64,000 nt of DNA, taken from contig JAEMWC010000197.1 of the NCBI GenBank assembly GCA_016490735.1, positions 875,001 to 939,000 on the forward strand, in the 5' to 3' direction. Under the pieces are notes generated by a model. The model was not told where the DNA came from and made no database searches. It was given only the letters and a program-made list of their open reading frames with translations. This DNA comes from Pachyseris speciosa (Eukaryota > Cnidaria > Anthozoa > Scleractinia > Pachyseridae). How positions within the stretch are numbered: the stretch's first letter is position 1; every line of letters starts with the position of its first letter. Shown in pieces: positions 1,140 to 59,455 of this stretch. Made by a program: the position numbers and the translations under genes.

Positions 1140-1387
1140 TTAGGAGAGACTTACCATTTGCACGTTCCATCCGGATGGAAATTTTACGTGTGAACATTCA
1201 GTGCTGCAGCTTGTTCAAACGAAAAATGGATAAATCACAAAATGTACTAGTATCAGTTGCAAAGCTCAAAAAGAACTGAAAAATTACATTGATTAAGTCG
1301 ATGGCCTATAATTACTGAAACGTTCCGAATGGAGTGGTACGTACCATTTCATTTTCCAACCAGAATTTCCGGGTTAACCGTGTAAAT

Positions 1388-1728
1388 GGTGGGTGCTTAC
1401 CATTTGTCAGAAAAATCCGGAAATTTCGGTTTCAAGTCAAATGGTAAGGTAATTTTCCGGAAAATCTTTTCGGGAATTGTGGACAACCTCCAGAGGTAGT
1501 CCTCTTTTCCCGTTCGGAACGGAATTTCGGAAAATTGCTTACCATTTGACCGAACCGTTCCGTTTCCAGGTCCTTTTGCGCCAGAACGAGTTAGTGCGCA
1601 TGACGGTACGCCTTGTAGTAATGGTAAGCTCCAGTCTCATCCGGTTGGTCAGTAAATTCGGAAAATGGCTTACCATTATTCAACGGTCATTCCATCCGGA
1701 TTTTTCTGGCAAATGGTAAGCACCCACC
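1388..1728. mobile_element. MITE immediately upstream of the GOLM-like start
   Basis: The ends form inverted repeats of about 33 bp: GGTGGGTGCTTACCATTTG at 1388 and its complement ending at 1728, each followed inward by a CAGAAAAATCCGGA-type segment with one mismatch. The 340 bp interior repeats the words ACCATTT and CCGGAA many times and has no coding capacity. A related element, with the shared end GTGCTTACCATTTG, lies at 20915-21148. Only 62 bp separate this element from the ATG of the next gene, so it must overlap or abut that gene's promoter or 5' UTR. Confidence 0.8.
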
Positions 1729-7700: not shown

Positions 7701-10700
7701 GAAACAAAGGAATTTCATTTTGACCTACAACATATACATGTGAGATTGCTACCTTACTGGGGGGTTCAAGTTATCAAGGTTGTGCTGTATTGATGGAAAT
7801 TTGCTTAATATACAACAGAAAAAGCTGAAAAACTAATGAAAAAGTTCAAGGATGTGAAAGCAAACCATTCTGCTCTTTTGGAGAAGATTACCAAACTAAC
7901 AGCTGAGAGGTGAGTCTGTAAAGCTCTTTTTGATTGTTTGTTCAGCTGAATGTGCATCTATTTCCTTGAATGAAGTTCTGTTATTTCAGGTAGTGTCAAG
8001 GGGCCTGTTAAAACCTACGAAGTGTTTTCAGTCCAGAGAGTGTTTTTCAAGTTTGTTTCCTTTTCCTATTTCCTATTGAAATAGCCTTCTGGGCCCGGTT
8101 GTTCAAAAGCTGATTAACCCTAATCCAAGATTAAGAATTAACCAAGGACTTTATTTCTCTATCCACAAACGTTGTTCAACGCTGATATTCTCCAGAATTT
8201 TAGATTAGAGGACGTCAATACTGAAAAGCAAAAAGCACCAAAAGAAACTTTTATCCAAAACTTAAAAACTGCAACCAAAGTTTATGCTAATCCTGGATTA
8301 AGTTAATCGGCTTTCGAACAACCGGGCCCTGAGCTACAGTAACTAAAGTACAGCTGTAGGCAGTGACCTGGTGAATTTTTTTAATAATTTGAGTGAAAAT
8401 ATGGACAAAGTACATGTAGGTGGCGGTAAGAGGTAAATTCTAACAAAGTAGGCGGCGATTTTCACAAGTTGCCAGCTTCTACTGAAACCCCTGTAATTAG
8501 TAGTAGCTTTTAGAGCAAAGTAGCCCAACGTATATTTAATCTTGTGTTTTTCTCAACTTTTTCTCATTCAGAAACAAATGTCTGTTAATGAACATTGTGC
8601 ACATGAAAAATTTATTATGTCCGAAATGTTTTTGGAGTTCTAGCCAAAGTCTAAGCTGGCCATTATGTGGATAGGATTTTTGTAGGCTTGTCACTTCCGC
8701 TGTTGTCACTAAAGATCTCAGAGGCGTGATTCTCCCAGATCATATACATGTACATTGTATTAAAGCACATGATGATCACTGGGAATGAGCACGGCACAGT
8801 TTTAAATATTTATATTAAACCACTACCAAGTCACTGCTATCTTTTCCCCAACAATTGAACATGCCATTACGTTATAACAACGTCTTGATGTTGTTGGTTG
8901 ATGGGAGATTCATTGTAATCTATTTTGGCGATTTTAGTAAGCCACTGACTCAACGCTTGGCAATCACAAAGCCACAGTACATTGTATTCTACTAATTTGA
9001 CTGTGTGCTACTTCCATTATATTTGTTATTAAAGTGACAAAATTCTTGTTCTTTTCGAACATGAGATATTTCACCATCTTAGTGTTTATTCTAGAAAGTA
9101 TAAAAATGGAACTAAAGTCATTTACGTGACTGGTCCAAATGTATGGCAATTTATTATAATTAGTACAAAATAAAGGAAAATAAACATTGAACCAAGGATA
9201 GAATTGAACCACAACATAATAATGCAATCCAGTTCTCCAACCCTGTTCCTCTGAACTACTCAGATTTTGAGAATTCTCTTTTCGTCCATGCTAGAACCCA
9301 GAATACGTACATTGTGTACTGTACATCTGTATGTGCATGTTGCTCTGAGTGTTGTCAAGTTCAAGGAATTAATTTGTTTTCATTGTCAGAGTACTAAAGT
9401 GGTGACATCACAAAAACTAAATTTGTGAAATTATGGGATTTGTTTGGATATCCAGAAAGAACACTATAAAGAAGGCCTACTTGCCAAAAATCAGCATTTT
9501 CTTACAGTTTGAGAGCAAGATATTAGCACCGTTATGCTCTGCTGACTCCATACAAATCCTTCTAAATTTTACTTAGTTCATAACATTATGAACTGAGTCA
9601 AATTTAGAATGATTTGTATGGAGTCAGCGGAGCGTAACGGTGCTAATATCTCAAAGCCAATTTGCCTTTAATTGCTGATTTTTAGCAAGTTAGCATTTTT
9701 CATCTTGTTGTTCTGAAAATCTCAACGTACAAATCCCATAATTTCAAAAATTCTTATATTTGTGACGTCACACTTTAGCACTCTATTGTGATACTTTTTA
9801 ACAGGGAAATCTGCCAAGAAGATTTGCAAAAGATGAGGGAAGAACTTGAAGATGCAAAGAAGGCTCAAGGTATAATTATGTACATGTTATATCTTAGTAC
9901 TGATTTAATTATGTTTTCCTCCACAAACAGGTTCCTCCATAATAAGCTTAAAAGTCAACAAAATTAATCTTCCTGGCTGGACTTATTGCAATCCATTATG
10001 AAAACAAAACAACAACAACAACAAAAGAAAAAACAAAACAAAAAAAAGGTTCATCCTTTTATTCTAATAATTTTTTTTATTGTATGTTCTCTGCACCAGC
10101 CTGTTAAGAGGCTATCAAAGCCACTAACAGGCTATCCAAGGGATCACTTCACCCCATTATTTTCTTGTAACCACTTCCTCGACATCTACAGTAACTAAAA
10201 ATGGTGCATGAGCTGACAATGAGAGAAATGAAGTTTGAGAGGTCAATTTTTCAAGAAATCAAACCAATGAATGGCTTTAAAGTTCTTGAAATTGTTGCTA
10301 CATGTATGTCAACTTTTTGAACAAATCTACATGTGCATGTATCTGTTGCATTGGGAAATGGATTACATTGGGAATTGGAACATTTTATGCTGGCAAGGGC
10401 TAATTACAGTTTATCTTGCAGGATTCTGTTCCACAGATTCCACCTTAACTTTTCTTGTGCTGCAGAGTATTTGTTTGTAGTAGCCAGGGCTGTAGTTAAT
10501 ATGAGGGGAACCAATGCACTTGCCTCGGTAAAAATTTGGAGTCTACATTATATTGTTTCCTTCCTTGTGTGTGTCTTACGAAAAATATAAAGGTTTGGTA
10601 ATACGGGCAACAAATTTGTGCAACGTTCGACGCAAAATTATTGCGATACAAGTTAGAGCGATGTTGGCCATTTTACCACTTGTGCACCACTCCCCGATTT

Positions 10701-22692: not shown

Positions 22693-24507
22693 TCAATGAT
22701 ACACAAAGTTCTTTCTCGCTTGGTGGTACTCCGGGTCCTGAAAGTTTGTGGCCATTATTGCCAGTTCAATTGCGCGACATTCTTCAATCTTCTCCATCAT
22801 CTCCTTACTTGCTTTTCTGTTCTTTTCCCTGACAAAATGCCTCTGTAAAGGCGAGTTGGCAAGAAACGATGCGTGATGCTTGACCCAGTTGTCAAACTGT
22901 TCCACACCCTCGCCGACGCATCCATCCAGAAGACCGATGTCCGCAGCCTCGCAGGCCATGATGGGCTCAGCACTATTCAACAGCTCACTGGCCTTTTCGT
23001 GTCCCACGCGCTTAGGGAGGAAGTAGGTGTGATATTCTGAGCTGTACAGCTTCATTTTCTTGTAGTGAGGATTGAGCACAGACCCTTCACGGGCAAACGC
23101 GAAGTCGCTGGCTAAGGCCATCAGCGCTCCTCCAGCACCGGCATTTCCGCGCACAGCTGAGATCGTGATCTTTTTGCTGGTAAAGATGCAACGTACCACG
23201 TCATTAATGGCGTTGATGTTGTTCCACGATTCCTCCGCTGGGTCCTGTGCTGCTTCTATTACGTTCAAGTGGATACCGTTGCTGAACATATCATTGCCGC
23301 CCATCAGCACCATCACCTTGCACGAATCATTCTCTTCCACTTTCTTCAGAACAGTTATCAGGCGCTCACATTGCTTGGTACTCATAGCTCCGTTGTAAAA
23401 GTCAAAGTGCACAAAGCAGACGCCATCCGGAGTCATACTGGTCCAGATGTCCTGAAATGTGTTGGGATAAGAACCATGTGGGATTGGTAGAGTAGGCACA
23501 TCTGGGATGGTGGGCGCGTTGGTCTGTAACCACATAGTGGCCGGAAGTTTCAGCTTGTTCGTCTTGAGATGTGACACCCAAACAGCTCCTCTACCACACT
23601 TCACTAGGAGAGAGCCATGACGTTGGCCCAATATCTCGCCCGGCTTTCCCGTCAGAAATCTAAGTTTTCCTTTCTCCAGATGTGCTCCAAATAACCGAAA
23701 TGCCTTGGTCCATCCCCAGTCATCAGCTCCATGATTGGTGCGAAAATAACCGACAGCCCCTGGTGATGAATCAGACATGCGTATCTGACAAGCCACCTCA
23801 TCTGCAGACATTTCCCAGTTGATCGTTCGGTCACTCTTGATCATGTTTGGCCGGCAAGCTCCTCGCACAAGAGGATTGTTATAGTCCAGGGGTCTGGGTG
23901 CTCGTCCTTCTGTCAAGTTATCCATGGCCTCTAGTACGGCTTTGACAGCTGTTTGCGTCACTTCATTCACGTACAAGCTGGATTTGGTCAGGGTGTTAAT
24001 GTTCCGTCGCTTGATCGGAAAGGTTTGGGTGCTCCAGATGTCTCCAGCGTCCATCTCCTCAGCCGCTTGCAGTATGCTGACGCCCCACTCATCCTCCCTG
24101 TCATATAGTGCCCAGTCGATTAAACTCGCACCGCGATCACCCTCGATTCCAGGATGGACGATCCAGCAAGGGGTTCTGGGATTAGAAAACACCTCCTCTG
24201 GGATACGTTTGGTGAGAAATGGACATAGGATGAGATCAGGCTGTGCGTCTGCTGCGAGCTCGGTCATCTGCCCTGGATCATTGATCTCATGCACGGTGAT
24301 ATTGTGTTGTCTCTTCGTTAATTCGAGAGCCATCCTTTGGCTGAGGCTGTTGTGCTTGTTTGAGAAGAATAGGATGTTAAGCTTCCTATCTGGCTCTGGG
24401 CAAATTGAAAAGTGCTCTGGATGCAATAGCTGTGATTCAAGTCTTCCGTGAAGAAGCGACAGGAGATGTGGCTTGAGAAAGCTTTTCAGAGTAGTGATCC
24501 TCGACAT
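22693..24507 (-). CDS. hypX: HypX/HoxX-like formyltransferase-crotonase fusion protein, copy A, 604 aa
   Basis: Residues 43-220 form a formyltransferase-type Rossmann domain: LNILFFSN at 43-50, WIVHPGIEGDRGAS at 115-128 with the catalytic-type His118, and EMDAGDIW at 151-158 with Asp156. Residues 225-320 resemble the C-terminal formyltransferase domain. Residues 360-555 are a crotonase (enoyl-CoA hydratase) fold with MGGNDMFSNGIHLN and GNAGAGG as oxyanion-hole loops and NPHYKKMKLYSSEYHTY as the segment unique to HypX. In bacteria HypX uses N10-formyl-tetrahydrofolate and CoA to make formyl-CoA and then CO for the [NiFe]-hydrogenase cofactor. The coding region is free of introns; TTTTTTTTACAG lies just before the ATG and may be a 5' UTR acceptor. 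The first 30 residues are basic, hydroxylated and nearly without acids, as in mitochondrial presequences. GC content is visibly above its surroundings. Function in an animal is unknown; bacterial origin by transfer is inferred. Confidence 0.88.
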   Translation of the reverse strand: MSRITTLKSFLKPHLLSLLHGRLESQLLHPEHFSICPEPDRKLNILFFSNKHNSLSQRMALELTKRQHNITVHEINDPGQMTELAADAQPDLILCPFLTKRIPEEVFSNPRTPCWIVHPGIEGDRGASLIDWALYDREDEWGVSILQAAEEMDAGDIWSTQTFPIKRRNINTLTKSSLYVNEVTQTAVKAVLEAMDNLTEGRAPRPLDYNNPLVRGACRPNMIKSDRTINWEMSADEVACQIRMSDSSPGAVGYFRTNHGADDWGWTKAFRLFGAHLEKGKLRFLTGKPGEILGQRHGSLLVKCGRGAVWVSHLKTNKLKLPATMWLQTNAPTIPDVPTLPIPHGSYPNTFQDIWTSMTPDGVCFVHFDFYNGAMSTKQCERLITVLKKVEENDSCKVMVLMGGNDMFSNGIHLNVIEAAQDPAEESWNNINAINDVVRCIFTSKKITISAVRGNAGAGGALMALASDFAFAREGSVLNPHYKKMKLYSSEYHTYFLPKRVGHEKASELLNSAEPIMACEAADIGLLDGCVGEGVEQFDNWVKHHASFLANSPLQRHFVREKNRKASKEMMEKIEECRAIELAIMATNFQDPEYHQARKNFVYH

Positions 24508-24539
24508 TTTCGCTGTAAAAAAAATACAAGGATATTTTA

Positions 24540-27223
24540 AGTTAGTGATGCCTGTAAAGTCCTAGATCTCGGATAATCAAAGGAGAAAGGAATCACACTC
24601 GCAGCTAGCCAACCTTTCGAGAAACGTTTGGTTACTTCTTAAACCCTTAAAGGCGCTACGTTTCGTATACAACGGAAAATGAGCAACCATCAGGCAACAT
24701 TGTTTGGGCTTAGATTTCACTTATTTTCTTCATTGGCTTCTGTGCCAGGAGGGAGGTGTCGTCTCCAGGCAAAACAGTGGTCGCCATCACTACCAGTGTG
24801 ACGTCACGTCATTCATAAGCGATTTTGACGGGCAAATTTGCGATACGGTATCTTCCGAAAAAATACAGAATGTACCACGGCTTTCACTTTTTCATATGCT
24901 ATTTTAGATGCTATTTAGGATTGAAAAAAGAAAAAAAAGATTTGTTTGAAATAATTTTCAATAGGCTTCAGTAAGTCTCCAACAGCCTCATATTCCGAAT
25001 AAAAAGGAACTCGCATAGGTTAATTCGTCGCCAGTTTTTGTTCGCGTGTTAACGTTTTCAGCCGAGAGTTAGCGTAGTGATGCAGTGTTATTATGAAGAG
25101 GCGTGAGGTTTGGCACATGCATGGTATGTTAAGCTTGCCGAGTGCCGCTTGTGCTTCAGTGCCAGCCGTTTTGGCATGAGGTCAGATATTTGGTTCCAGT
25201 TGATTATCCGTGTGTTTCGGACCGTTTCATGCCGATTGTAATGAGGGAGGTATATTAGGTATAACCGCCAAAAGAAGAAGCCAAAGATACATTTAAGCAA
25301 TGCCTTTTCACGCCGAACAAAGTATCCCTGGTGTCATCTTTGCTTGAGCTACCAAGAGGTAACAACTTTCCACTCACATGGCCATGGAATTCCGAATGGC
25401 CTTGGTTTACTAATAAAGGCCGCCACATCACTCAGTTTTATTGACAGTGCTCGGGCACTGCACCTGAATTTTTGCATATATGTAGGACGTATTACGTAAT
25501 AATCCATAGTGATAACATTATTTTTATATCAAACTAAATGTCCTAAAAGCAAACAAAGAAAACAACGATGTTAGACTTTTACGGATGCTCTGAACATCAT
25601 GTGCTTATAACCGGCTTACGATTCATCTGTATTTCATTTGATTCTGTTCTTTTAAATAAAAACAGCAATCGGAGTGCAGGATTTAAGCCACTTGGGCGAG
25701 TTGTTTGTAGTCTGCAAGTGCTAGAGGCCCCAACATTGTTGACAAAGAACATTCAATATTGATGGGCCCAAGATGTCGGGTGCGTTTGAATACGCCGTGA
25801 AATGTTGTTGGCAGTTGTTGAGCGAAGATCGAACAGCTTTAAAGCTTAAGAGCCAACAGTCCCAACATTTCTTTTGTCTTGTGATCGTTGAAGCGTAGCC
25901 TAGCAATGTTGCCTGCATTTGAGCGCGCACGTGTTGCATTCGATTTAAAATGGTGGACAAGCAGCAGCTAAAGCAGGTTTGTGGCTTGCTTTTTGTCTCA
26001 GAATCCATTGCATTGCTAGAGTATGTCCAATATTGTTGGAACTTGTTGGGATCGTTTGAACAAGTTCCACAACACTGCTTAACGACCTCCAACAATGGAA
26101 ATGATGCGAGCATTTGCAAGAGCCTTAACCTGTGATCAGGTCCTACCACTTTCCAGACAAAACGTATCGGTGTAATACGAAATTAAACAACAAGGTAGCC
26201 TTGAAAAAGAAGTCTAAAAAATGAAAGAAACTAGGCCTGTATCTTGCTGTAAGTATGACCGGCTTTCCATTCACACCCATTCCCTTGTAATGGATAGTCA
26301 CTTCGTGGCGTATGTGTCCCCGCGGCTTCAGTCAACAGCGAAGCAAATTTACCTCTTTATTCAAAGTAACCAACTGATCGACCAAAGGCAACAAAATTTG
26401 ACTAGAAAATCTAGGCACGCTATGAGGCCTCCCAAGGGGTGGTCTGGTGTCGCTTTGTCGCTCGTTTACGACTCTGTCTCTCGCTTGTTTTTTTAGAGAC
26501 AAATGTTGCTGTTGCAAAGAAAACAAAGACAAATGGAAAGTGAATTGTCACTGTTGTTAACTGTCGCGCGTTTTTTTTTTCCAAATTTTGTCGGTTGTCG
26601 GTGTTTTGGGAGAAGATTGTCGCCTTTTTTCGGAACCATTTGGCTTGTCGCCTCTACCCCTTGGAAGCCCTCCGCTATGCTAGAACCGACTATCGAATTG
26701 AGCAAATGCGATCTGATTTGTATTTAGAATAAACCACAACCATAAAATCGAGCTGAATCGTCCAAAGCTAATCAGATTGCAGAATTCAATTCAGCTGGGA
26801 ATCAGGAATTCAGCTGGAATCGTTAACTAATTAAGAATCAAACAACATGCAACTTTTACTCCTTAGATTGTCGGCCCTACCTGTGCTCAGATGCAACAGC
26901 TCCCTGGTTGTACAGTTGCCTGCGTCGCCGGCCACTCGTCATGTACGACTGATCTCTGATCACGTTAATTTCACGTGACTTCGGCACGCGACATCCCTGA
27001 ACGCTCTCTGAAAAACAACTGCGTTGATTGAGATTTCTGATAACGTTTCATGCACGTGACTTGACCTATGGATTGAAAAATGGGATTTATGCCCCAAAAG
27101 CATTCAGATGTTGATATTCCCGGCCGCTAAATTAACAGTAAATCTGAAGGTTGAGAAGAAGCTCGTTTTTGTGTTAAATGTACCAAGAGAACCAAGAAAA
27201 ACTTCTGGCTTGCCTGTAATGTA
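24540..27223. other. Spacer between the HypX-like copies, first part
   Basis: No gene recognised. 25700-26150 has loosely inverted CAACATTGTTG words suggesting an old MITE, and ORFs here are short and unlike anything known to me. The sequence has no resemblance to the upstream flank of copy B beyond about 35 bp at the ATG. Confidence 0.5.
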
Positions 27224-27571
27224 TCAGTCAATTCCAAGAGCGACCACCCCCCACCCCCGGGGGCATATCCCGGGTATTTGACTCGAACTGTGTCCCGAAC
27301 GGTACAAGGTTTCGGATTTGGCTTGCAAAGGTAAGGGATTTTAGACTAAAATATTTATTATAAGCGGGAGGGCGTGCCAAAATACTTCATGCAACGAGTG
27401 ATTTGCAATAGGTTTATACTTGATTTGCCCTCTTTGAGGCCCCGATGGTGGGGCATTTGACCGTTTAAACTGGAAACACAACGGAGCAATTGATCAAAAT
27501 TTTCCAAAAAAGTCGAATGCCCGGGAGTTTTCCCGGGGGGAGGGGGGATGGGCGCTTTTGGAATTGACTGA
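27224..27571. mobile_element. MITE with TCAGTCAATTCCAA ends
   Basis: Left end TCAGTCAATTCCAAGAGCG, right end CGCTTTTGGAATTGACTGA, followed inward by ACCACCCCCCACC and its complement GGGGGGATGGG. The 348 bp element is non-coding. Confidence 0.8.
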
Positions 27572-27798
27572 GACAGACATAACGAGCTAAGCTCTCGGCT
27601 ACATCGAGTGAGGATTTTAAAGCCGAGTTCAGTCTGAGAGGTGAAATATAAATACATAAATGTAATAAAAATTAACGATAAATGTAATACCAGCCATAAT
27701 AATCTGACTCACCATAAATGTAAGAAATTTTAGCTATAAATGTAGTAAATTTGTTATCTCTTTGAAATGGAGTTTAGAATTAAGTGTTCAGGTAGTTA

Positions 27799-28184
27799 GG
27801 CCCGGTTCAAACGTCGACCTTTTATGCGACGAATCAAATCATTTGATTCGGCGCATTAGAAGTTCGACGTTTGAATCAATTAAATCATTGACGAATTTGA
27901 TTTGGGTCGACCCAACTATTAAATTCGACCGAGTCGGTCGTATTTAATAGTTCGGTCGACCCAAATCAAATCGTCGAATTTAATTGATTCAAACGTCGAA
28001 CTTCTCATGTGCCGAATCTAATGCATAAATTATTTTAATGTATTTTCGGAAAAACACCAAGAGTAACATTTAATTCGACGCATTTAATTCGACCTCTGAA
28101 TCAACGTCGAATTTCAATTTATTTGGGTCGATCCAAAGAGGCATTTGATTCGGCGCTTGAAAAGTTCGACGTTTGAACTGGGCC
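27799..28184. mobile_element. PIF/Harbinger-like MITE, GGCCCGGTTCAAACGTCGA ends
   Basis: GGCCCGGTTCAAACGTCGA at the left is complemented (one or two mismatches) by TCGACGTTTGAACTGGGCC at the right, with TTA on both sides as a likely 3 bp target duplication. The interior repeats TTCGACG / CGTCGAA and GGGTCGACCC and has an inner palindrome. TTA duplications and GGCC termini fit PIF/Harbinger by family knowledge. Confidence 0.75.
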
Positions 28185-28300
28185 TTAGTCCATTGTTTAG
28201 ATTAGTACTGTTTATTATTTTTCACATTCATACTACACACTCAGCGGAGTTTTTACGAGAATTCCACTTCATTGTTTTGCTTTCTTTTCAATTTGCTTTT

Positions 28301-28591
28301 AGTATAAATCTACTAGCGTTCTATCACGAATGCCGTTCTCTGATTTGCTACGCTACTCGTTATTTATTCTGTGATAGATAGTGAGCAGCGGTTGACGACC
28401 GCATCTTCGCGTTTTCGAAGTGTCTTCGAGGAAGATTTAGACAATTTGCTTGTTTAGTTTTGAACGACTAGTAGATTTACACTAAAACAATTAGATTATT
28501 CGCTCTCGATTTCTATGCGTGATAGCTGAATCGGGCTGCGCCCTCATCAGCTATCACGCGATAAAAATCTCGAGCTCATAATCTAATTGTT
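28301..28591. mobile_element. MITE AGTATAAATCTACTAG plus adjoining AACAATTAGATTAT hairpin
   Basis: 28301-28483 has inverted ends AGTATAAATCTACTAG / CTAGTAGATTTACACT. 28486-28591 is a 106 bp hairpin with ends AACAATTAG / CTAATTGTT and the stem GCGTGATAGCTGA / CAGCTATCACGC. The same pair of units recurs at 35374-35804 and 43437-43719. Confidence 0.8.
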
Positions 28592-29534
28592 AAGTAAAAT
28601 CAACGCAGGGCGGGATTTACACTGGAATTGCGCAACTCGAGAAAAGATCGATTAGGTTAGCCAGATTATTATCGATGTTGCAGTGTTCTACTACAGCTAT
28701 TGGAGATGCAAAGAACGAGAAGTTAAAATCCATCATGGTGGAAAGTGCACCATGTTGTTAAGCCACGAACTAAAAGTCTCTCAGTTTCTACTTTCACTCC
28801 GACAGAACTTTCCAGGGTCCATTGTTTGCTATCCGCGGGTTAAGGGAGGCGAAAACTCATGAATTGAGCCTTCACGCAAAACCATCATACAACAGAAATG
28901 TAACGGTAAAGTAAACAATCAGAAATAAAAAAACCCAGGGATTTTGACTAAATACCGGACAGTTTAGCAGCGGTGGAAACTTAACGCCAAGTGGAATTCT
29001 CCCAAAAACTACTTCTGAATGTGTAGTATGAATGTGAAAGTAATGAAACATTTTCAGTTTCCTTCGTCCAAGCCAGTCTGTATTGGGTGCGTTACTTTTT
29101 GGGTGCAAGTTACCATCTGCAGCTACTTTTGTGGTTGTTGTAGACATCACCGCTTTTGCTTATAACGGCCAGCATTTTTTATATATATATTTTTTCAATG
29201 AAAGTTGAAAAATAAAACCTTAACACTTCTATGCACTTACTGTCTTTTAAAACTGAGACTTTTGATTGAGGTTACTCAACCAAGTAGTTGTTAAGATGGT
29301 ACCAAAATAAGATTTCAATGCCGTAAGAACTCTCTCCGCTCTTAACTCAAAACAACAACGACCTACACGATAGCGTTCAATGACACTAGATTAAACCTTT
29401 GTTTTTTAAAACAAACTTTCTTGAACTCAAATCGGCTTTGCTGAAATTCTACTGGGCTAGCTAATTGTTTTACATCGGCACCTAAAAACACCCTCCGGTT
29501 TACAGCAAGGTTACCCTTAATATACTGTTTCGGA
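28592..29534. other. Spacer downstream of HypX-like copy B
   Basis: AT-rich with no gene recognised. Similarity to the copy A downstream flank stops at the stop codon. Confidence 0.5.
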
Positions 29535-31343
29535 TTAGTGATAGACAAAGTTCTTTCTCGCTTGGTGGTACTCCGGGTCCTGAAAGTTTGTGGCCATTAT
29601 TGCCAGTTCATTTGCGCGACTTTCTTCAATCTTCTCCATCATCTCCTTACTTGCTTTTCTGTTCTTTTCCCTGACAAAATGCCTCTGTAAAGGCGAGATG
29701 GCAAGAAACGATGCGTGATGCTTGACCCAGTTGTCAAACTGTTCCACACCCTCGCCGACGCATCCATCCAGAAGACCGATGTCCGCAGCCTCGCAGGCCA
29801 TGATGGGCTCAGCACTATTCAACAGCTCACTGGCCTTTTCGTGTCCCACGCGCTTAGGGAGGAAGTAGGTGTGATATTCTGAGCCGTACAGCTTCATTTT
29901 CTTGTAGTGAGGATTGAGCACAGACCCTTCACGGGCAAACGCGAAGTCGCTGGCTAAGGCCATCATCGTTCCTCCAGCACCGGCATTTCCGCGCACAGCT
30001 GAGATCGTGATCTTTTTGCTGGTAAAGACGCAACGCACCACGTCATTAATGGCGTTGATGTTGTTCCACGATTCCTCCGTCGGGTCCTGTGCTGCTTCTA
30101 TTACGTTCAAGTGGATACCGTTGCTGAACATATCATTGCCGCCCATCAGCACCATCACCTTGCACGAATCATTCTCTTCCACTTTCTTCAGAACAGTTAT
30201 CAGGCGCTCACATTGCTTGGTACTCATAGCTCCGTTGTAAAAGTCAAAGTGCACAAAGCAGACGCCATCCGGAGTCATACTGGTCCAGATGTCCTGAAAT
30301 GTATTGGGAGAAGAACCATGTGGGATTGGTAGAGTAGGCACATCCGGGATGGTGGGCGCGTTGGTCTGTAACCACATAGTGGCCGGAAGTTTCAGCTTGT
30401 TCGTCTTGAGATGTGTCACCCAAACAGCTCCTCTACCACACTTCACTAGAAGAGAGCCATGACGCTGGCCCAATATCTCGCCCGGCTTTCCCGTCAGAAA
30501 TCTAAGTTTTCCTTTTTCCAGGTGTGCTCCAAATAACCGAAATGCCTTGGTCCATCCCCAGTCATCAGCTCCATGATTGGTGCGAAAATAACCGAGAGCC
30601 CCTGGTGATGAATCAGACATGCGTATCTGACAAGCCACCTCATCTGCAGACATTTCCCAGTTGATCGTTCGGTCACTCTTGATCATGTTTGGCCGGCAAG
30701 CTCCTCGCACAAGAGGATTGTTGTAGTCCAGGGGTCTGGGTGCTCGTCCTTCTGTCAAGTTATCCATGGCCTCTAGTACGGCTTTGACAGCTGTTTGCGT
30801 CACTTCATTCACGTACAAGCTGGATTTGGTCAGGGTGTTAATGTTCCGTCGCTTGATCGGAAAGGTTTGGGTGCTCCAGATGTCTCCAGCGTCCATCTCC
30901 TCAGCCGCTTGCAGTATGCTGACGCCCCACTCATCCTCCCTGTCATATAGTGCCCAGTCGATTGAACTCGCACCGCGATCACCCTCGATTCCAGGATGGA
31001 CGATCCAGCAAGGGGTTCTGGGATTAGAAAACACCACCTCTGGGATACGTTTGGTGAGAAATGGACATAGGATGAGATCAGGCTGTGCGTCTGCTGCGAG
31101 CTCGGTCATCTGCCCTGGATCATTGATCTCATGCACGGTGATATTGTGTTGTCTCTTCGTTAATTCGAGAGCCATCCTTTGGCTGAGGCTGTTGTGCTTG
31201 TTTGAGAAGAATAGGATGTTAAGTCTTTTTCTCAACTCCGGACGAATCGAGACATGTTGTGTTACTTGTGACTCAAGTCGTCTGTGGTTTGGAGACAGGA
31301 AACGTGGCTTGAGAAAGTTTATCAGAGTGGTTATCCTCGACAT
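29535..31343 (-). CDS. hypX: HypX/HoxX-like formyltransferase-crotonase fusion protein, copy B, 602 aa
   Basis: Same architecture as copy A. An upstream in-frame ATG would add 15 residues, but the conserved start MSRITTL at 31343 is preferred because both copies share it and TTTTTTTGCAG stands right before it. From residue 41 on I count 22 base differences from copy A (13 change an amino acid, 9 are silent); in copy A numbering these include E105V, L129S, V252L, S312T, Y347S, A424T, S489G, N551I and I580N. Residues 1-40 differ strongly (about half identical) yet keep a basic, presequence-like composition. Copy B has LYGSEY, which I recall as the family form, where copy A has LYSSEY. No intron is seen in the coding region. 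A TATA-like CTATAAATAG lies about 60 bp upstream. Probably an active paralogue; expression is not shown by the sequence. Confidence 0.88.
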   Translation of the reverse strand: MSRITTLINFLKPRFLSPNHRRLESQVTQHVSIRPELRKRLNILFFSNKHNSLSQRMALELTKRQHNITVHEINDPGQMTELAADAQPDLILCPFLTKRIPEVVFSNPRTPCWIVHPGIEGDRGASSIDWALYDREDEWGVSILQAAEEMDAGDIWSTQTFPIKRRNINTLTKSSLYVNEVTQTAVKAVLEAMDNLTEGRAPRPLDYNNPLVRGACRPNMIKSDRTINWEMSADEVACQIRMSDSSPGALGYFRTNHGADDWGWTKAFRLFGAHLEKGKLRFLTGKPGEILGQRHGSLLVKCGRGAVWVTHLKTNKLKLPATMWLQTNAPTIPDVPTLPIPHGSSPNTFQDIWTSMTPDGVCFVHFDFYNGAMSTKQCERLITVLKKVEENDSCKVMVLMGGNDMFSNGIHLNVIEAAQDPTEESWNNINAINDVVRCVFTSKKITISAVRGNAGAGGTMMALASDFAFAREGSVLNPHYKKMKLYGSEYHTYFLPKRVGHEKASELLNSAEPIMACEAADIGLLDGCVGEGVEQFDNWVKHHASFLAISPLQRHFVREKNRKASKEMMEKIEESRANELAIMATNFQDPEYHQARKNFVYH

Positions 31344-31398
31344 CTTCCCTGCAAAAAAATAATAAGGATAAAATTTTACATCGGTCATCAGTTAAGTC

Positions 31399-38597: not shown

Positions 38598-39962
38598 TAT
38601 CCGATCAGTATGAAATATTTTATACTTTGATTAATTTCATACTATCAGTCTATGCCGTTTTAACACATACTTTAAGTGAGCTCACTAAATTATATTTTTA
38701 CAGAGCAAATTACTGTTACCATTTAGTACTGAAAATATACTCCCCCCCACCCCCCTCCTCCCACCTGTACCCGTTTTCTCTTCCCATATTTGAAACACAG
38801 CAGTCACGTGTTTAGTTCGGAATAAATAGTTGATACAGGTTGTTGTTATATAATTTCGTCTCGTATTTTTGTCCATTTTCCACTACACACTGGATTCTGT
38901 TTCACCAATTTTTACGCCGTTTCAAAAATCACTGGCTTTTGGAAGGTTCGTCTGATTAGTTGTAAATTAACTGCTACGAGAAATTTCTAACGTACCAAGT
39001 TTCTGGCAGTTAGAATGGGGGAGATACTAATTCATGATCTGTGCATGGAACTACAGAGAAATTCTACGACTTACCTTCAATATTACATGAAAATTTTGCG
39101 ACATGTTTATTTCGCGATTTCACGAGGCGCTTATTTCGCGACACTTAATTTCGAAATTTTGCGGAAATTTTCCGATTTCGAATCACTTTAATTTCGCGTT
39201 TTTGATTAAGACTTAACTTATAACTTGTCCTTGAATCAAATAAAACTACTTCATTTTATTAACAACCGTAAAAGCCACTGAGAGGTTCAAGCAGCCAGCA
39301 GAACAGCAGGACAAGGAGCCAGTAAATGGACGGTTTGAGGACTGTTCAAAAGAAATGCTGTGATGAGGAAGATCAAGATGTTGCCTCAGAATAGTTAAAA
39401 ATATGATTCTCCTGAAGGTTTCATTGCTAATAAAGTGTATGGTCGTAAGACTACGAGGATTAAAACATAAGTAAGTAAGTATTATTGACATCAGAGAGTC
39501 ACCTCAGTTATTTTCGCATCATGTTATGTTCGCGACACTTATTGTTTGCGACACTTTAATTTTGCAAATCTTTTAAAATCGCAACATTCGCGAAATTAAC
39601 GTGTCACGAAAACGTTATGTAATAAAGTACCTGTCCCATGTCTAGCTACTCACAATAACATATATTGGTTATTATGATGAAATACAGATCGCACAATTTG
39701 ATTCATTGCACAATTGATAAGCTTGGTTGGCCTGTGCTGCAAACAATCCCTCAAAAGTGTAACTTGGTAACCACCCACATTTATGTTATATGCATTTATA
39801 CAATAATGAGCATAATTTGGATGACCTTCGAAATAAAATCTTCACAGAAATCCTAATGTTCATTATATTATCTTTTAATTGCCTAACAAACTTTGCAAAA
39901 GGGCTTATAATATAGATAAAAATAACAATTGCTTGGTAACCAGGCAATTTTGACACATTCAG

Positions 39963-40372
39963 GACTTCGACGGGGTTTGAACTCGTGACCTCGCGATTAC
40001 CGGTGCGATGCTCTAACCAACTGAGCTATGAAGCGTTGAAGTCCTGAATTTTTTCAGGCTTCTTTTCGCAATTGCATAAATTGCGTTCACAACTGCGAGG
40101 ATCATTCTTCATTTGATTTCATTTCCGCAGTTCATGTATGATTTATTTCATATATATCATTCACACTCATTTCTTTCACGGGAACATATGAACCCACAAT
40201 TGACCTGCTCCCAACGTCAGTGGCTTCATAACTCAGTTATTTAGAGCATCGCACCAGTAATCGCGAGGTCACGGGTTCCAACCCCGTTGAAGTCCTGAAT
40301 TTTTTCAGGCTTCTTTTCGCAATTGCATAAATTGTGTTCACAACTGCGAGGATCATTCTTCATTTGAATACA
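39963..40372. repeat. Two tRNA-derived SINE copies, one chimeric
   Basis: 40222-40372 is a + strand copy: GGCTTCATAACTCAGTTATT (A box), GGTCACGGGTTCCAACCCCG (B box), then the hairpin CCTGAATTTTTTCAGG and the body CAACTGCGAGGATCATTC. At 39963-40035 a tRNA-like head lies on the minus strand but is joined directly to a + strand body starting GTTGAAGTCCTGAA, so this copy is a head-inverted chimera. The heads resemble a tRNA with CATAGCTCAGTTGGTTAGAG. Confidence 0.8.
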
Positions 40373-44973: not shown

Positions 44974-46981
44974 TTGATTAAGATAGCAATTAAATTTAGA
45001 CTTACTTGTTACAGCGCAATCAAAAAACTGGTGAACGCTGTGAAAATATAGTACGAGCGCTTGCCTTTGCGAATCACAGATCAACTGGCTAATTGAGCTA
45101 AAACAAAGCATTTATCATATCTAACAGAAACAAGGAATTAACTGTCAGTCGTTGGCACTGGGTCAGGTGCTAGAAGAGTGAGAGGAATGGGGAAGTGTGC
45201 GCCTCTGACGTAAATGTAAAAAAAGAAATTGACTTTCCTTTTTGACGGCTTTGTTTCTGTTACGAGGAAAACAATTCTTGCTTAGTCATGATACGTGGGA
45301 CATAAACACTTAAGGTAGTTGTATAAGCAGAGTTCAATGTCCATTCTTAATTTACCTTTTAAATTTACACGAGGAAAATTAACTATGAACTGGCAACACA
45401 AAGTGACTAATTGTAATTCATATAAATCTTAGTAAGTTTCTCCGTTTAGCCGGTGACAGGTTACCTTGCATCGAAACTTCGTCACTTGAGATTGCCTTTG
45501 CGAACTTGAACGGACTAATCAATGGTAGTTTCCACCCAACAATGCATTTTAACTACGAAAATAGTTCGACTAGAGTGTTCCCGACAACAGACCTCGGAAA
45601 GAAACGTGTAAAACGAAAGCCCCCCCCCCCCCCCCCCGAAATAAAAGAGAAAAGAACCACATTCCGCCGACTTGCGAACTACAAATACTTGTTAATTTGG
45701 ATAAAAATTAGCAACGTTGAAACTTAATAATAATATTTAATTGTGTTTCCCACCCAGTGGAGGTCTTGTTGATTCCAAGAAAGAAAGCAATTAAAGTTAG
45801 ACTTTCTTGCTATATTTTTGTATCATATCTAACAGAAAGAATAAATTTTAAAACTGTCATTCGGCAGGGGCACCCAACGAGCCAAATCAACGAAACACAA
45901 CGTAGTAGAAAGGCAGTTTTGAGTACCTAATGGTGTTTGAAGTCTACCGGTTTATAGTGATGTTCAGTCACTAGCTAGAAGAATTTGATCTGTTCGGATT
46001 CTGCAGATGAAAATTTAATAGCCCGGCCGAGAATGTTAGGAGCAAAATCTTTCTTTGAGAAAATGCTAGCTGAACTGCACGTACTTTATAGGGAAGTAGT
46101 TTCTTTCCGAAACTGTTAGCTGACGTTCTGACTGCCAAAAACAACAAATACGACCTTGCCGAAAACCCTAGGGGCTATGATTTCCCCATTGCGAATCTTT
46201 TAGGTCACGTTTCAGCTACGATAATCTAAGTGCATAATCAACGCCGGAAGACTAAGGCGAACTACACTCCACAGATCGTGAACGGGGCAGTCTACCTAAA
46301 CTTGTCGTTGGGTTCCCCTTGTTGAGGGAAAGTGTTCACTTGTTACGTAAATATAAGGCGGGATAGAAATGATTTTCCTTTTTACTTTGTTTCAGCTACG
46401 TATACAAAGAAAACAATTCTTGTTTAGTCATGATACGTTGGACATAAAAACTAACTTGAGGTAGATATATATGAGCAGAGTTCACTGTTCAATGTCCGTT
46501 TTTTTAATTTAAACGAGGACAACTGGCAAGACACATATCAAACTCAGTAAGGTTTCTCCGGCGTTATCTTGCATCTAAACTTAGTTACCCGATACTTAAA
46601 CGAACAAATTTATGATAGTTTCCACCCAGCAATGTATTTTCAATACGAAACCGGACAACAAACCTCGGAAAGAAGCTTTCTGACAATTTTTCTCTCGGCA
46701 CGTGTATTTCGAAAGATTCTGTTTTCCCTGAAATTCGTACTTAAGGCAATAAGAGTCTAGCCAATGAGATTCGACCAGATTTGTCTGTTAGTGTATAATT
46801 GAATAGTCTTCGTCAGTTTCGCACGCTCACATATGTGTTGTATATACTAAAACAATTATTCACCTTAGTGGCGGTTAAAAGTGGTGGATATTTACCGAGC
46901 CGCTTCCCCCACCACTTTGGATACGCAATCAAACTGGTTTTCCAGTGAAACTCAGTTCTTTTCAAACTTTCAATAATGATG

Positions 46982-47027
<46 letters not shown>
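44974..47027. repeat. Tandem duplication, unit 1 (2,054 bp)
   Basis: Starts TTGATTAAGATAGCAATTAA and ends in an (AAT)n tract at 46977-47028. It is nearly identical to unit 2 except that it lacks a 714 bp internal block present there (47706-48421). ORFs inside are short and not conserved as proteins. Confidence 0.85.

Positions 47028-47028
<1 letters not shown>
46977..47028. repeat. (AAT)n microsatellite at unit 1/2 junction
   Basis: About 16 AAT units; it marks the boundary of the duplicated units. Confidence 0.9.
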
Positions 47029-49748
47029 TGATTGAGATAGCAATTAAATTTAAACTTACTTGTTACAGCGCAATCAAAAAACTGGTGAACGCTGTGAAAA
47101 TCTAGTACGAGCGCTTGCCTTTGCGAATCAGAGATCAACTGGCTAATTGAGCTAAAACAAAGCATTTATCATATCTAACAGAAACAAGGAATTAACTGTC
47201 AGTCGTTGGCACTGGGTCAGGTGCTAGAAGAGTGAGAGGAATGGGGAAGTGTGCGCCTCTGACGTAAATGTAAAAAAAGAAATTGACTTTCCTTTTTGAC
47301 GGCTTTGTTTCTGTTACGAGGAAAACAATTCTTGCTTAGTCATGATACGCGGGACATAAACACTTAAGGTAGTTGTATAAGCAGAGTTCAATGTCCATTC
47401 TTAATTTACCTTTTAAATTTACACGAGGAAAATTAACTATGAACTGGCAACACAAAGTGACTAATTGTAATTCATATAAATCTTAGTAAGTTTCTCCGTT
47501 TAGCCGGTGACAGGTTACCTTGCATCGAAACTTCGTCACTTGAGATTGCCTTTGCGAACTTGAACGGACTAATCAATGGTAGTTTCCACCCAACAATGCA
47601 TTTTAACTACGAAAATAGTTCGACTAGAGTGTTCCGGACAACAGACCTCGGAAAGAAACGTGTAAAACGAAAGCCCCCCCCCCCCTGAAATAAAAGAGAA
47701 AAGAACTTTAGGGAACCGAGAAGACAATACAGTGGGCAAAATAATTTGAATTTATTCAATGAAACAGCTTGTCTACGGTTGTTTATAATTTTTGTTTCCG
47801 GCAAAACTGCAGCCAACAGAACAACGGAGTGAAGAGTTCGTGAAGATCAAAGCCTGCTCAAAGAGAACAAGTGAGCTACTGTGTAAAGGCCTGACGGAAC
47901 TAATGAGCCTAGTGATGTTGACAAAAATGCCTTTTATTTGTTCCGGATCTTGCTTACACTTTGCTTGCTTTAAAAACGCTTGAATTTTCGGTGATCGATT
48001 TTTCTTAGTTACCTAATAATGACGTACAATCTAAATGTTTTCTGACTCTGTGTTTGTTCGGCAAATTTGAAACAAAACAAAAGTTTAGTGATTAGCGAGC
48101 GAGTGTTTCGTTGAAAAGCGGAAAACCGCAGATGAAGGAAGTTGCAAACTTTCAACAAAGCACAAATCGTTGACGAAACAATATGGTTTGGTCTGATGGA
48201 GGGCGCTGGATACGCAATCAAACTGGTTGTTCAGTGAAACGTCTTTTCAAACTTTCAATAGAGCACAAATCGATGAGAAAATAATATGGTTTGGTCTGAT
48301 GGAGGACTCGCTGGATACACAAATAAAGTGCCGGTTCTTTGGTCAGTTCAGTACAAATTCTTTCCTTAAAAACGTTCGTATAAATATGTTTAAATATTTC
48401 TGTTTGTCTCACTGTTTTAGACTAACCACATTCCGCCGACTTGCGAACTACAAATACTTGTTAATTTGGATAAAAATTAGCAACGTTGAAACTTAATAAT
48501 AATATTTAATTGTGTTTCCCACCCAGTGGAGGTCTTGTTGATTCCAAGAAAGAAAGCAATTAAAGTTAGACTTTCTTGCTATATTTTTGTATCATATCTA
48601 ACAGAAAGAATAAATTTTAAAACTGTCATTCGGCAGGGGCACCCAACGAGCCAAATCAACGAAACACAACGTAGTAGAAAGGCAGTTTTGAGTACCTAAT
48701 GGTGTTTGAAGTCTACCGGTTTATAGTGATGTTCAGTCACTAGCTAGAAGAATTTGATCTGTTCGGATTCTGCAGATGAAAATTTAATAGCCCGGCCGAG
48801 AATGTTAGGAGCAAAATCTTTCTTTGAGAAAATGCTAGCTGAACTGCACGTACTTTATAGGGAAGTAGTTTCTTTCCGAAACTGTTAGCTGACGTTCTGA
48901 CTGCCAAAAACAACAAATACGACCTTGCCGAAAACCCTAGGGGCTATGATTTCCCCATTGCGAATCTTTTAGGTCACGTTTCAGCTACGATAATCTAAGT
49001 GCATAATCAACGCCGGAAGACTAAGGCGAACTACACTCCACAGATCGTGAACGGGGCAGTCTACCTAAACTTGTCGTTGGGTTCCCCTTGTTGAGGGAAA
49101 GTGTTCACTTGTTACGTAAATATAAGGCGGGATAGAAATGATTTTCCTTTTTACTTTGTTTCAGCTACGTATACAAAGAAAACAATTCTTGTTTAGTCAT
49201 GATACGTTGGACATAAAAACTAACTTGAGGTAGTTATATGAGCAGAGTTCACTGTTCAATGTCCGTTTTTTTAATTTAAACGAGGACAACTGGCAAGACA
49301 CATATCAAACTCAGTAAGGTTTCTCCGGCGTTATCTTGCATCTAAACTTAGTTACCCGATACTTAAACGAACAAATTTATGATAGTTTCCACCCAGCAAT
49401 GTATTTTCAATACGAAACCGGACAACAAACCTCGGAAAGAAGCTTTCTGACAATTTTTCTCTCGGCACGTGTATTTCGAAAGATTCTGTTTTCCCTGAAA
49501 TTCGTACTTAAGGCAATAAGAGTCTAGCCAATGAGATTCGACCAGATTTGTCTGTTAGTGTATAATTGAATAGTCTTCGTCAGTTTCGCACGCTCACATA
49601 TGTGTTGTATATACTAAAACAATTATTCACCTTAGTGGCGGTTAAAAGTGGTGGATATTTACCGAGCCGCTTCCCCCACCACGTTGGATACGCAATCAAA
49701 CTGGTTTTCCAGTGAAACTCAGTTCTTTTCAAACTTTCAATAATGATG

Positions 49749-49780
<32 letters not shown>

Positions 49781-49795
49781 TAATAATAATAATAA
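47028..49795. repeat. Tandem duplication, unit 2 (2,768 bp)
   Basis: Same start as unit 1, with the extra 714 bp block at 47706-48421, which contains two tandem copies of TATGGTTTGGTCTGATGGAG. Ends in the (AAT)n tract at 49740-49796. Differences from unit 1 are few (for example ACGTGGG versus ACGCGGG near 45295/47349). Confidence 0.85.
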
Positions 49796-49796
49796 T
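49740..49796. repeat. (AAT)n microsatellite at unit 2/3 junction
   Basis: AAT units with one interruption (AAATAA). Confidence 0.9.
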
Positions 49797-50860
49797 TGAT
49801 TAAGATAGCAATTAAATTTAAACTTACTTGTTACAGCGCAATCAAAAAACTGGTGAACGCTGTGAAAATCTAGTACGAGCGCTTGCCTTTGCGAATTAGA
49901 GATCAACTGGCTAATTGAGCTAAAACAAAGCATTTATCATATCTAACAGAAACAAGGAATTAACTGTCAGTCGTTGGCACTGGGTCAGGTGCTAGAAGAG
50001 TGAGAGGAATGGGGAACTGTGCGCCTCTGACGTAAATGTAGAAAAAGAAATTGACTTTCCTTTTTGACGGCTTTGTTTCTGTTACGAGGAAAACAATTCT
50101 TGCTTAGTCATGATACGCGGGACATAAACACTTGAGGTAGTTGTATGAGCAGAGTTCAATGTCCATTCTTAATTTACCTTTTAAATTTACACGAGGACAA
50201 TTAACTATGAACTGGCAACACAAAGTGACTAATTGTAATTCATATAAATCTTAGTAAGTTTCTCCGTTTAGCCGGTGACAGGTTACCTTGCATCGAAACT
50301 TCGTCACATGAGATTGCCTTTGCGAACTTGAACGGACTAATTAATGGTAGTTTCCACCCAACAATGCATTTTAACTACGAAAATAGTTCGACTAGAGTGT
50401 TCCGGACAACAGACCTCGGACCAATTTTTCTCTCGGCACGTGTATTTCGAAAGATTCTGTTTTCCCTGAAATTCGCACTTAAGACAATAAGAGTCTAGCC
50501 AATGAGATTCGACCAAATTTATTCCTACAATATTGTTTGTTAGTATATACCACACAAATGAATAGTCCTCGTTTTCGCGCGCTCTGATCGCGGGTTAACT
50601 CGGAAGTGATTAGCAAGTACACCTCCGAGCAGCCGGCGCGCAGTTCATATATGATTTATTTCATATACCATTCACATGTCGGTATATTGTCAAACATAAA
50701 GTAATGTTTTGGTCCGCTAGTTATTCAGCTTGTGTGGTATACACTAAAACAATTATTCACCTCAGTGTCGGTGAAAATGGTGGATATTTACCTCGTCGCT
50801 TCGCGGCTTGGTAAATATCCACCACTATTCACCTCCACTTCGGTGAATAGTTGTTAATTA
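49796..50860. repeat. Tandem duplication, unit 3, internally deleted
   Basis: Begins like units 1 and 2, but at 50420 jumps from ACAGACCTCGGA to CAATTTTTCTCTCGGCACG, skipping about 1.08 kb between two sites that share ACCTCGGAAAGAA. It then carries the complete composite MITE at 50540-50855, of which units 1 and 2 keep only a shortened form. Confidence 0.8.
50540..50855. mobile_element. Composite MITE, second locus
   Basis: 50540-50747 has ends TTAGTATATACCACACAA / TTGTGTGGTATACACTAA; 50748-50855 is a hairpin with ends AACAATTATTCACC / GGTGAATAGTTGTT and the stem GGTGGATATTTACC / GGTAAATATCCACC. A SINE-like scrap GCAGTTCATATATGATTTAT sits inside the first unit. Mirror of the arrangement at 21845-22091. 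Confidence 0.8.
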
Positions 50861-58800: not shown

Positions 58801-58923
58801 CTGAATCTGAAATTTGGTGTAACTATAGCATATGCCTGCCCTATTTCTCAATATCAGGTTTGCTATTGCTGGTGACTTATCCTTACATTTTAAGATCCTT
58901 GAATATTCTTTTTCTCTGTGCAG
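55860..58923. other. Region upstream of the ETS exon
   Basis: No complete gene seen. ATGGCCTTACCT|GTAAGT at 57875-57886 looks like a short first coding exon with a good donor, but its phase (0) does not fit the ETS exon (which needs one preceding base). An inverted repeat GTGTAAATTGAGTC / GACTCAATTTACATC lies at 58400-58449. Confidence 0.4.
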
Positions 58924-59455
58924 TTTTTGTCAGCAAAGTCTCAAAACCAACCAAGATCTTCGAGTTTATTCTAGATACTCTGTCGGACTCCCGGTACTCT
59001 TCAATCATTGCATGGGAAGGAACAAACGGACAGTTTACTGTCATTCAGCCAGACCAGGTCGCACGTCTATGGGCGACAGGAATGGCCGACCAACCATGAC
59101 ATACCAGAACTTCACTCGAGCTCTGCGTTATTACTACCACAAGAAAGTTTTAAACAAGGTTCGGGGACGGAAACATACATACAAGCTCAATATCCGGGAG
59201 CTCGAGAGGCAGTACGGTTACCAAGGCATTACATTTTCCCGCGCCACAAGTGAGTGGAATGGCAATACCGACTACGAGTTTTCAGCCGCTCGTGATCCCT
59301 TTTATCAACCAATCAGCGACCACAGTCTTCCCGCCATTGATTTAAGTTTTTCAATGGGTTCCCCGATGGTGTTCATGGTTGCACATGAAAGGAAAAATTT
59401 GCGATTACCCTCTGATTCACATGGAAACCATTTTCCCGTGCCAGTTAACTTCTAA
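58924..59455 (+). CDS. ETS-family transcription factor, terminal exon (ERF/ETV3-like), one-base frame break
   Basis: After the acceptor TTTTTCTCTGTGCAG (ending 58923) the exon reads KPTKIFEFILDTLSDSRY and SSIIAWEGTNGQF, then QPDQVARLW in frame 1. From GGGCGACAGG (59071) the ETS homology continues only in another frame: GDRNGRPTMTYQNFTRALRY, YYHKKVLNKVRGRKHTYKL. The recognition helix with the two Arg (RALRYYY) is intact. The IIAW and the LNIRELERQYGY tail are closest to ERF/ETV3. One G fewer than needed in the GGG run at 59071-59073 causes the break. After the domain about 70 aa follow to the stop at 59453-59455, including YEFSAARDPFYQPISDHSLP. Such factors bind GGAA sites in the nucleus. Either a sequencing error in a homopolymer or a young pseudogene; upstream exons were not found. 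Confidence 0.8.

Follow-up and report, generated by a model that had tools for sequence, protein, structure and literature searches.

Predicted full-length HypX genes in tandem in a scleractinian genome, and some bacterial relatives that lie beside MHYT-domain sensor genes instead of hydrogenase genes

The DNA analyzed here is a stretch of 64,000 nucleotides from the scleractinian Pachyseris speciosa (assembly GCA_016490735.1, contig JAEMWC010000197.1, positions 875,001 to 939,000 of the forward strand), and this whole stretch is called the window below. It carries two tandem genes of the HypX (also HoxX) family, whose bacterial members convert N10-formyl-tetrahydrofolate (formyl-THF) to formyl-coenzyme A (formyl-CoA) and then release carbon monoxide (CO), as described in PMC12134894. 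Two HypX-like coding regions of 604 and 602 codons had been proposed from the letters of the window (here, the original prediction); both frames are present (Table 1), and the motifs quoted for them occur in each. The open reading frame of copy 2 was listed at 617 amino acids because the frame stays open across the last bases of the upstream intron, and counting from the first ATG past the splice acceptor gives 602.

Table 1. Positions of the HypX pair and associated features in the window.
Feature	Position	Strand	Remarks
HypX copy 1	22693..24507	minus	604 amino acids, single open coding exon; stop codon within coordinates
HypX copy 2	29535..31343	minus	602 amino acids, single open coding exon; protein 95% identical to copy 1
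3' splice acceptor of presumed 5' untranslated region (UTR) intron, copy 1	24508..24534	minus	pyrimidine tract, AG 6 bases 5' of ATG
3' splice acceptor of presumed 5' UTR intron, copy 2	31344..31370	minus	pyrimidine tract; placed by sequence and similarity limits
N-terminal extension, copy 1 (codons 1-42)	24382..24507	minus	basic, first acidic residue at 24, low model confidence
N-terminal extension, copy 2 (codons 1-40)	31224..31343	minus	differs from copy 1 at 37/120 bases
ETS domain, second half, open frame	58832..59455	plus	marks window as animal DNA

In each copy, the Pfam domains Formyl_trans_N, Formyl_trans_C, and ECH_1 follow one another in this order on one chain. The top PDB sequence match of copy 1 was HypX of Aquifex aeolicus (residues 31-602, E ~4e-119), whereas the top match to a protein with a single one of these domains reached E ~1e-12. 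Likewise, when the AlphaFold2 model of copy 1 (predicted local distance difference test [pLDDT] 85.5, predicted template modeling score 0.86; pLDDT below 50 for residues 1-37 and 260-265) was compared with PDB folds, hits 1-8 were all A. aeolicus HypX (template modeling scores of 0.91-0.95 of target over ~572 columns), and the hits listed after these eight were formyltransferases, crotonases, or ArnA. A non-HypX family as best match is thereby ruled out, and the HypX identity given in the original prediction holds by sequence and by fold. Sequence and fold searches agreed that the nearest animal protein fold is the hydrolase domain of 10-formyl-THF dehydrogenase; this domain and methionyl-tRNA formyltransferase have the formyltransferase fold and folate use in common with HypX but, unlike HypX, are without a crotonase domain. 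According to PMC6802093, HypX uses Asp where the triad of related formyltransferases has Ser, and in the mechanism proposed for the A. aeolicus enzyme, His74, Asp80, and Asp109 would transfer the formyl group, whereas Tyr416 and Glu426 would act in decarbonylation. The corresponding residues of copy 1 are H118, D124, D153, Y482, and E491; copy 2 and the bacterial rows of our alignment (90 of 90) have the same amino acids at these positions. None of four HypX proteins reached an NCBIfam cut-off, among the best 25 of 68, 29, 41, and 34 families, respectively. As judged from sequence and predicted fold, both copies encode full-length HypX with a complete set of catalytic residues, sharing the two-domain architecture, the fold, and the five catalytic residues with the A. 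aeolicus and Cupriavidus necator HypX/HoxX proteins (38.5% identity to the latter). Among the open-access papers listed in our searches, none describes HypX in animals; some invertebrate records may carry automatic "HoxX-like" annotations. A HoxX-like protein has been reported in Chromobacterium violaceum (PMC3927592), and the name hypX has also been given to an unrelated fungal gene (PMC4374905).

The pair differs from the A. aeolicus and C. necator genes in being a tandem pair in an animal genome, in its presumed 5' UTR intron, and in its N-terminal extension. More specifically, similarity between the two copies spans the splice acceptor and ends 27 bases upstream of the ATG, and each protein starts with residues not present in bacterial HypX (42 in copy 1 and 40 in copy 2), the conserved core starting at residue 43 and 41, respectively. 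Because M1 is the sole Met before the conserved core, the extension probably belongs to the protein. The N-termini had been described as of mitochondrial type. This is partly borne out: a real extension of 40-42 residues is there, with no acidic residue ahead of position 24, but the helical hydrophobic moment of residues 1-30 was reached by 3709/5000 and 2030/5000 shuffles of the two copies and so does not stand above shuffled sequence. Mitochondrial import of the HypX copies is possible.

Coding differences between the copies are concentrated at the 5' end (37/120 in the first 120 bases versus 25/1689 after), with a single change point at base 120 and a contrast reached in 0/500 shuffles. Synonymous divergence (dS) is ~1.1 over codons 1-45 (1.08 over 43 aligned codons, which offer few sites) and ~0.03 after codon 45, where the ratio of nonsynonymous to synonymous divergence (dN/dS) is 0.3-0.4, on few changes. 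Since there is one change point, at base 120, and N-terminal dS is high, we read the genes as old tandem duplicates whose bodies were recently homogenized by gene conversion; the same two features rule out a recent simple duplication.

The pair belongs to the animal nuclear genome, and the splice acceptors ahead of both ATGs mark the genes as eukaryotic. It lies on a contig of 1,078,590 bases (1.08 Mb) that also holds the ETS domain in the window and PDZ and PTB exons within 10 kb past the window end, and a search of the whole assembly (983.7 Mb, with the best candidates scored, 5/5) returned the two window copies only; no further HypX copy was found within the window. Contamination is ruled out by the contig, the three exons, and the assembly search, and the original prediction of an animal-genome tandem pair is borne out. 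Viral carriage was also rejected, as none of 52 pattern stretches in viral_contigs encodes a relative. The PDZ exon (positions 1295-1618, minus strand) and the PTB exon (8720-9100, minus strand) of flanking stretch L130 lie directly outside the window, and we take them to be reminiscent of an APBA/Mint gene. Unlike the setting of A. aeolicus or C. necator HypX, the locus showed neither a hypD nor a hypE match when all six frames of the window and of the 10 kb on one side were searched; the opposite flank of 10 kb is masked.

To place the animal genes among bacterial ones, we scanned genome_contigs and obtained 269 confirmed HypX places, the best 80 of which, picked by likeness to the animal protein, were kept (the HypX frames of L016, L018, L026, L028, and L032 were derived from tblastn matches). 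A hypD- or hypE-like neighbor was present at 37/80 loci. An MHYT-domain gene lay in the examined stretch at 14 of the 43 loci without such neighbors, in contrast to 0/37 with them (Fisher p 5.6e-5, for loci and related strains that are not independent by descent). All 14 MHYT genes are on the HypX strand, 4 to 1,106 bases off by stop-to-stop frames; Pfam called the domain at each of the 8 loci, out of 14, that were submitted to it, and a profile built from nine of these proteins called it in the remainder. Domain make-up, where tested, was MHYT-kinase in two Methylococcales (L006 and L012) and one cyanobacterium (L013), MHYT-GGDEF-EAL in the three Bacillota L001, L002, and L003, and MHYT alone in two Gammaproteobacteria (L048 and L072). 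At the seven Methylococcales loci, a response-regulator-like gene stands between HypX and MHYT, falling below the Pfam cut-off in the two tested. Samples of whole genomes were also searched. In the order of L001, 4/296 genomes have HypX. Besides that of L001, these are a newly met genome in which HypX, an HD-domain gene, and an MHYT-GGDEF-EAL gene stand in a row, and two that show no MHYT in the bases read (L004's own and L092/L120). HypX was found in 2/292 cyanobacterial genomes (L013's own and one with hypD/hypE) and in 1/299 genomes of the order of L002, that of L002 itself. The placement of bacterial HypX genes beside MHYT-domain sensors is new here: we found no earlier description of it, nor any work joining MHYT with HypX/HoxX or with hydrogenase, in the open-access literature.

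Several further features were seen around bacterial HypX genes. One Methylococcales genome (G009) has two HypX genes, one beside MHYT and one beside a DJ-1/AraC-type regulator (L035/L095 and L116/L122); a regulator of this type also lies upstream of HypX in L046. In L048, L049, L072, and L127, the stretch with the MHYT gene holds HypX and response-regulator genes (by Pfam in L048 and L072) together with genes that look, by eye, chemoreceptor-like. Genes resembling FAD (flavin adenine dinucleotide)-dependent oxidases by eye lie downstream of HypX in L123 (2079-6945), a possible one-carbon link. HypX occurs on megaplasmids of Mycetohabitans, endosymbionts of Rhizopus (L082), with no annotated hyp neighbors in a gene table that is incomplete, and the HypX frames of L098 and L106, from two Gammaproteobacteria, each contain one internal TGA.

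To determine how far these genes are separate from hydrogenase in the whole genome, we searched for HypD (TIGR00075) in every genome that contributed one of the 43 loci lacking hyp neighbors. It was not found in 20/43 and was found elsewhere in 23/43. Of these 20, 13 are named isolates (six Lysobacter, two Paenibacillus, Peribacillus, Bacillus aerolatus, Marinagarivorans, Marinomonas, and Moritella) and 7 are possibly incomplete metagenome-assembled genomes or uncultured bins. Among the 14 MHYT-linked genomes, 7 are without HypD. The premise of the original prediction that HypX is a hydrogenase gene is thus too narrow, and its account of an animal that acquired the gene and lost or never had the hydrogenase is one possible course of events. 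MHYT genes were searched for in 34 genomes (6 MHYT-linked, 20 with neither neighbor, and 8 hydrogenase-linked controls). The HypX-adjacent MHYT gene is the only one found in 4/6 MHYT-linked genomes (L003, L048, L049, and L072); L002 gave two MHYT genes in all and L001 five. In Marinagarivorans algicola and Bacillus aerolatus, a single MHYT gene and no HypD were found. MHYT occurs elsewhere in 9/20 genomes with neither neighbor (including the six Lysobacter, L005, L019, and L050) and in 2/8 controls.

We then asked where the animal proteins fall in the HypX tree. A tree of 92 rows (the two window proteins, the 80 loci kept from the scan, and 10 plasmid hits out of 48) is split into 47 and 45 rows by a branch with a support of 100 in the Shimodaira-Hasegawa-like approximate likelihood ratio test. 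The 47-row side holds 40 of 41 hydrogenase-linked rows and 7 with neither neighbor; the 45-row side holds all 14 MHYT-linked rows, 28 with neither neighbor, the two animal rows, and the long-branch row L087, which has hypD/hypE neighbors yet sits opposite the hydrogenase-linked side. A 70-row tree built under a mixture model, from which the long-branch rows L085, L087, and L090 and 19 near relatives were dropped, gave a hydrogenase-linked clade of 28 rows (support 100/99) with the animal rows outside. Mapping the MHYT label onto it takes 6 changes, of which no fewer than 5 are forced by well-supported branches, so the pairing of MHYT with HypX has been gained or lost several times. Approximately unbiased (AU) tests were made on 46 rows; among eight groupings, only that of the animal rows with four Methylococcales MHYT rows beat the free-tree likelihood (p 0.56), and groupings with Bacillota (p 0.45) or Cyanobacteria (p 0.34) were not rejected. 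Five columns that separate hydrogenase-linked from other HypX passed our cut-offs; they are uninformative, because the animal proteins match the hydrogenase type at 1 and the other type at 2. A place for the animal proteins outside the hydrogenase-linked clade is favored by the trees, and the AU tests do not prove it. MHYT-adjacent bacterial HypX genes resemble the animal pair in having no hyp neighbors and, as the trees favor, in lying on the same side of the main split; the window differs from them in having no MHYT match.

From the domain order, predicted fold, kept catalytic residues, open frame, and few amino acid changes between the copies, we infer that animal HypX forms CO. The N-terminal domain would transfer the formyl group of N10-formyl-THF to bound CoA, and the C-terminal crotonase domain would decarbonylate the resulting formyl-CoA, giving CO and leaving THF. 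More tentatively, this CO may serve the animal as a gas signal or as a local ligand of heme or copper, not in a hydrogenase. This last step leans on the bacterial relatives without hydrogenase neighbors, 14/43 of which lie beside a same-strand MHYT sensor gene. In CoxC of Afipia carboxidovorans, an MHYT-LytTR regulator, the MHYT domain responds to CO, requires copper, and has O2 as an antagonist (PMC11347149). The CO sensor domain of CoxC, which controls CO oxidation genes, is of a kind found beside some HypX genes; HypX, HoxX, and hydrogenase are not mentioned in PMC11347149. Because HypX adjoins a gene for a possible CO sensor, partly in HypD-free genomes, the two bacterial genes are most simply read as a maker and a reader of endogenous CO, and the location of HypX beside gas-sensor genes instead of hydrogenase genes suggests that CO can act as a signal. 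For the animal, a hydrogenase-independent CO-forming enzyme, perhaps used for signaling, is a reading in which our confidence is evenly balanced; signaling is the likeliest use of the CO, with folate disposal as the main rival. A broader proposal, which we regard as speculative, is that HypX is at root an oxygen-tolerant synthase of a CO signal, of which hydrogenase maturation is one specialized use; that some bacteria use it to supply CO to copper-based MHYT sensors controlling kinases and cyclic di-GMP enzymes; and that an animal lineage captured the hydrogenase-independent type, thereby gaining CO from the folate pool independently of heme oxygenase.

Several observations weigh against a hydrogenase-independent CO-forming enzyme with a signaling role in the animal. 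The use of CO may differ between the animal and bacteria, and neither the window nor the 10 kb beside it gave an MHYT match in six frames. Pairing with MHYT recurs but is found at a minority of loci, and the 80 loci had been selected for their resemblance to the animal protein. In a sample of Gammaproteobacteria, where 21/369 genomes have HypX at a total of 22 loci, hypD/hypE lies within ~1.5 kb at 18/22, MHYT is present at 1/22 (in the genome at the center of the sample), and 3/22 have neither, longer stretches included. HypD occurs elsewhere in 7 of the 14 MHYT-linked genomes; 11 of the 20 genomes searched with neither neighbor show no MHYT gene anywhere, and L004, L022, L024, L042, and L079 hold HypX with neither HypD nor MHYT found, so MHYT cannot be the sole partner of HypX. 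In addition, the animal rows sit on a long branch (1.3-1.7 changes per column), and the AU tests reject neither a sister position to the hydrogenase-linked clade (p 0.36) nor one inside it, in four subgroups (p 0.12-0.31).

Of the three outcomes offered in the original prediction, a CO signal has received indirect support from the bacterial neighborhoods, and formate or one-carbon disposal and formyl-CoA chemistry stay as its rivals. In the disposal reading, which we consider a serious alternative of clearly lower probability, surplus N10-formyl-THF would be removed and THF returned, with CO as a by-product, and the mitochondrial folate pool would be served if the protein is imported. The identical catalytic residues fit this equally, a basic extension free of acidic residues ahead of position 24 would be consistent with import, and the neighbors of some bacterial HypX genes, as seen by eye in L123, point to metabolism, not sensing. 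Animals, however, have 10-formyl-THF dehydrogenase for the task, which forms no toxic CO, the N-terminal amphipathicity is not above that of shuffles, and the MHYT neighborhoods would be left unexplained. A change in chemistry, whereby formyl-CoA (or another formylated CoA-like acceptor) is made without decarbonylation and supplies formyl groups, is conceivable for a protein with two separable active sites on a long branch, but both copies retain the proposed decarbonylation residues, Tyr416 and Glu426, and we consider it improbable.

Less probable again is that the pair is a bacterial remnant, either decaying or not expressed, or that it stems from contamination of the assembly: both frames are fully open with catalytic residues kept and a dN/dS of 0.3-0.4, they have splice acceptors, and animal exons lie on the same 1.08-Mb contig. 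Maturation of a hydrogenase, whether the animal's own or that of a close symbiont receiving its CO, would match the family's bacterial function, and the AU tests permit a place within the hydrogenase-linked clade; we nevertheless think it the least probable explanation of all, given that six-frame searches of the window and 10 kb beyond found no hypD, hypE, or MHYT match and that HypD was not found in the 20 bacterial genomes noted above. Animals are not known to have a [NiFe]-hydrogenase to mature.

If the coral enzyme is active as a hydrogenase-independent source of CO, it would constitute a second enzymatic route to this gas in an animal, from formyl-folate instead of heme. In bacteria, a candidate CO maker and a candidate CO sensor are encoded side by side, and endogenous CO signaling can be tested in HypD-free species. 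The automatic label "hydrogenase maturation protein" need not mean a link to hydrogenase.

Elsewhere in the window, a direct repeat of ~2 kb occurs at 45655-47652 and 48424-50420 (99.3% identical), and part of it is present once more at 44974-45657. Two tRNA matches to Rfam (40222-40295, plus strand, 34.9 bits; 39962-40035, minus strand, 31.9 bits; gathering score 29), neither of them called by ARAGORN, are 91% alike in opposite orientation and perhaps represent a tRNA-derived repeat.

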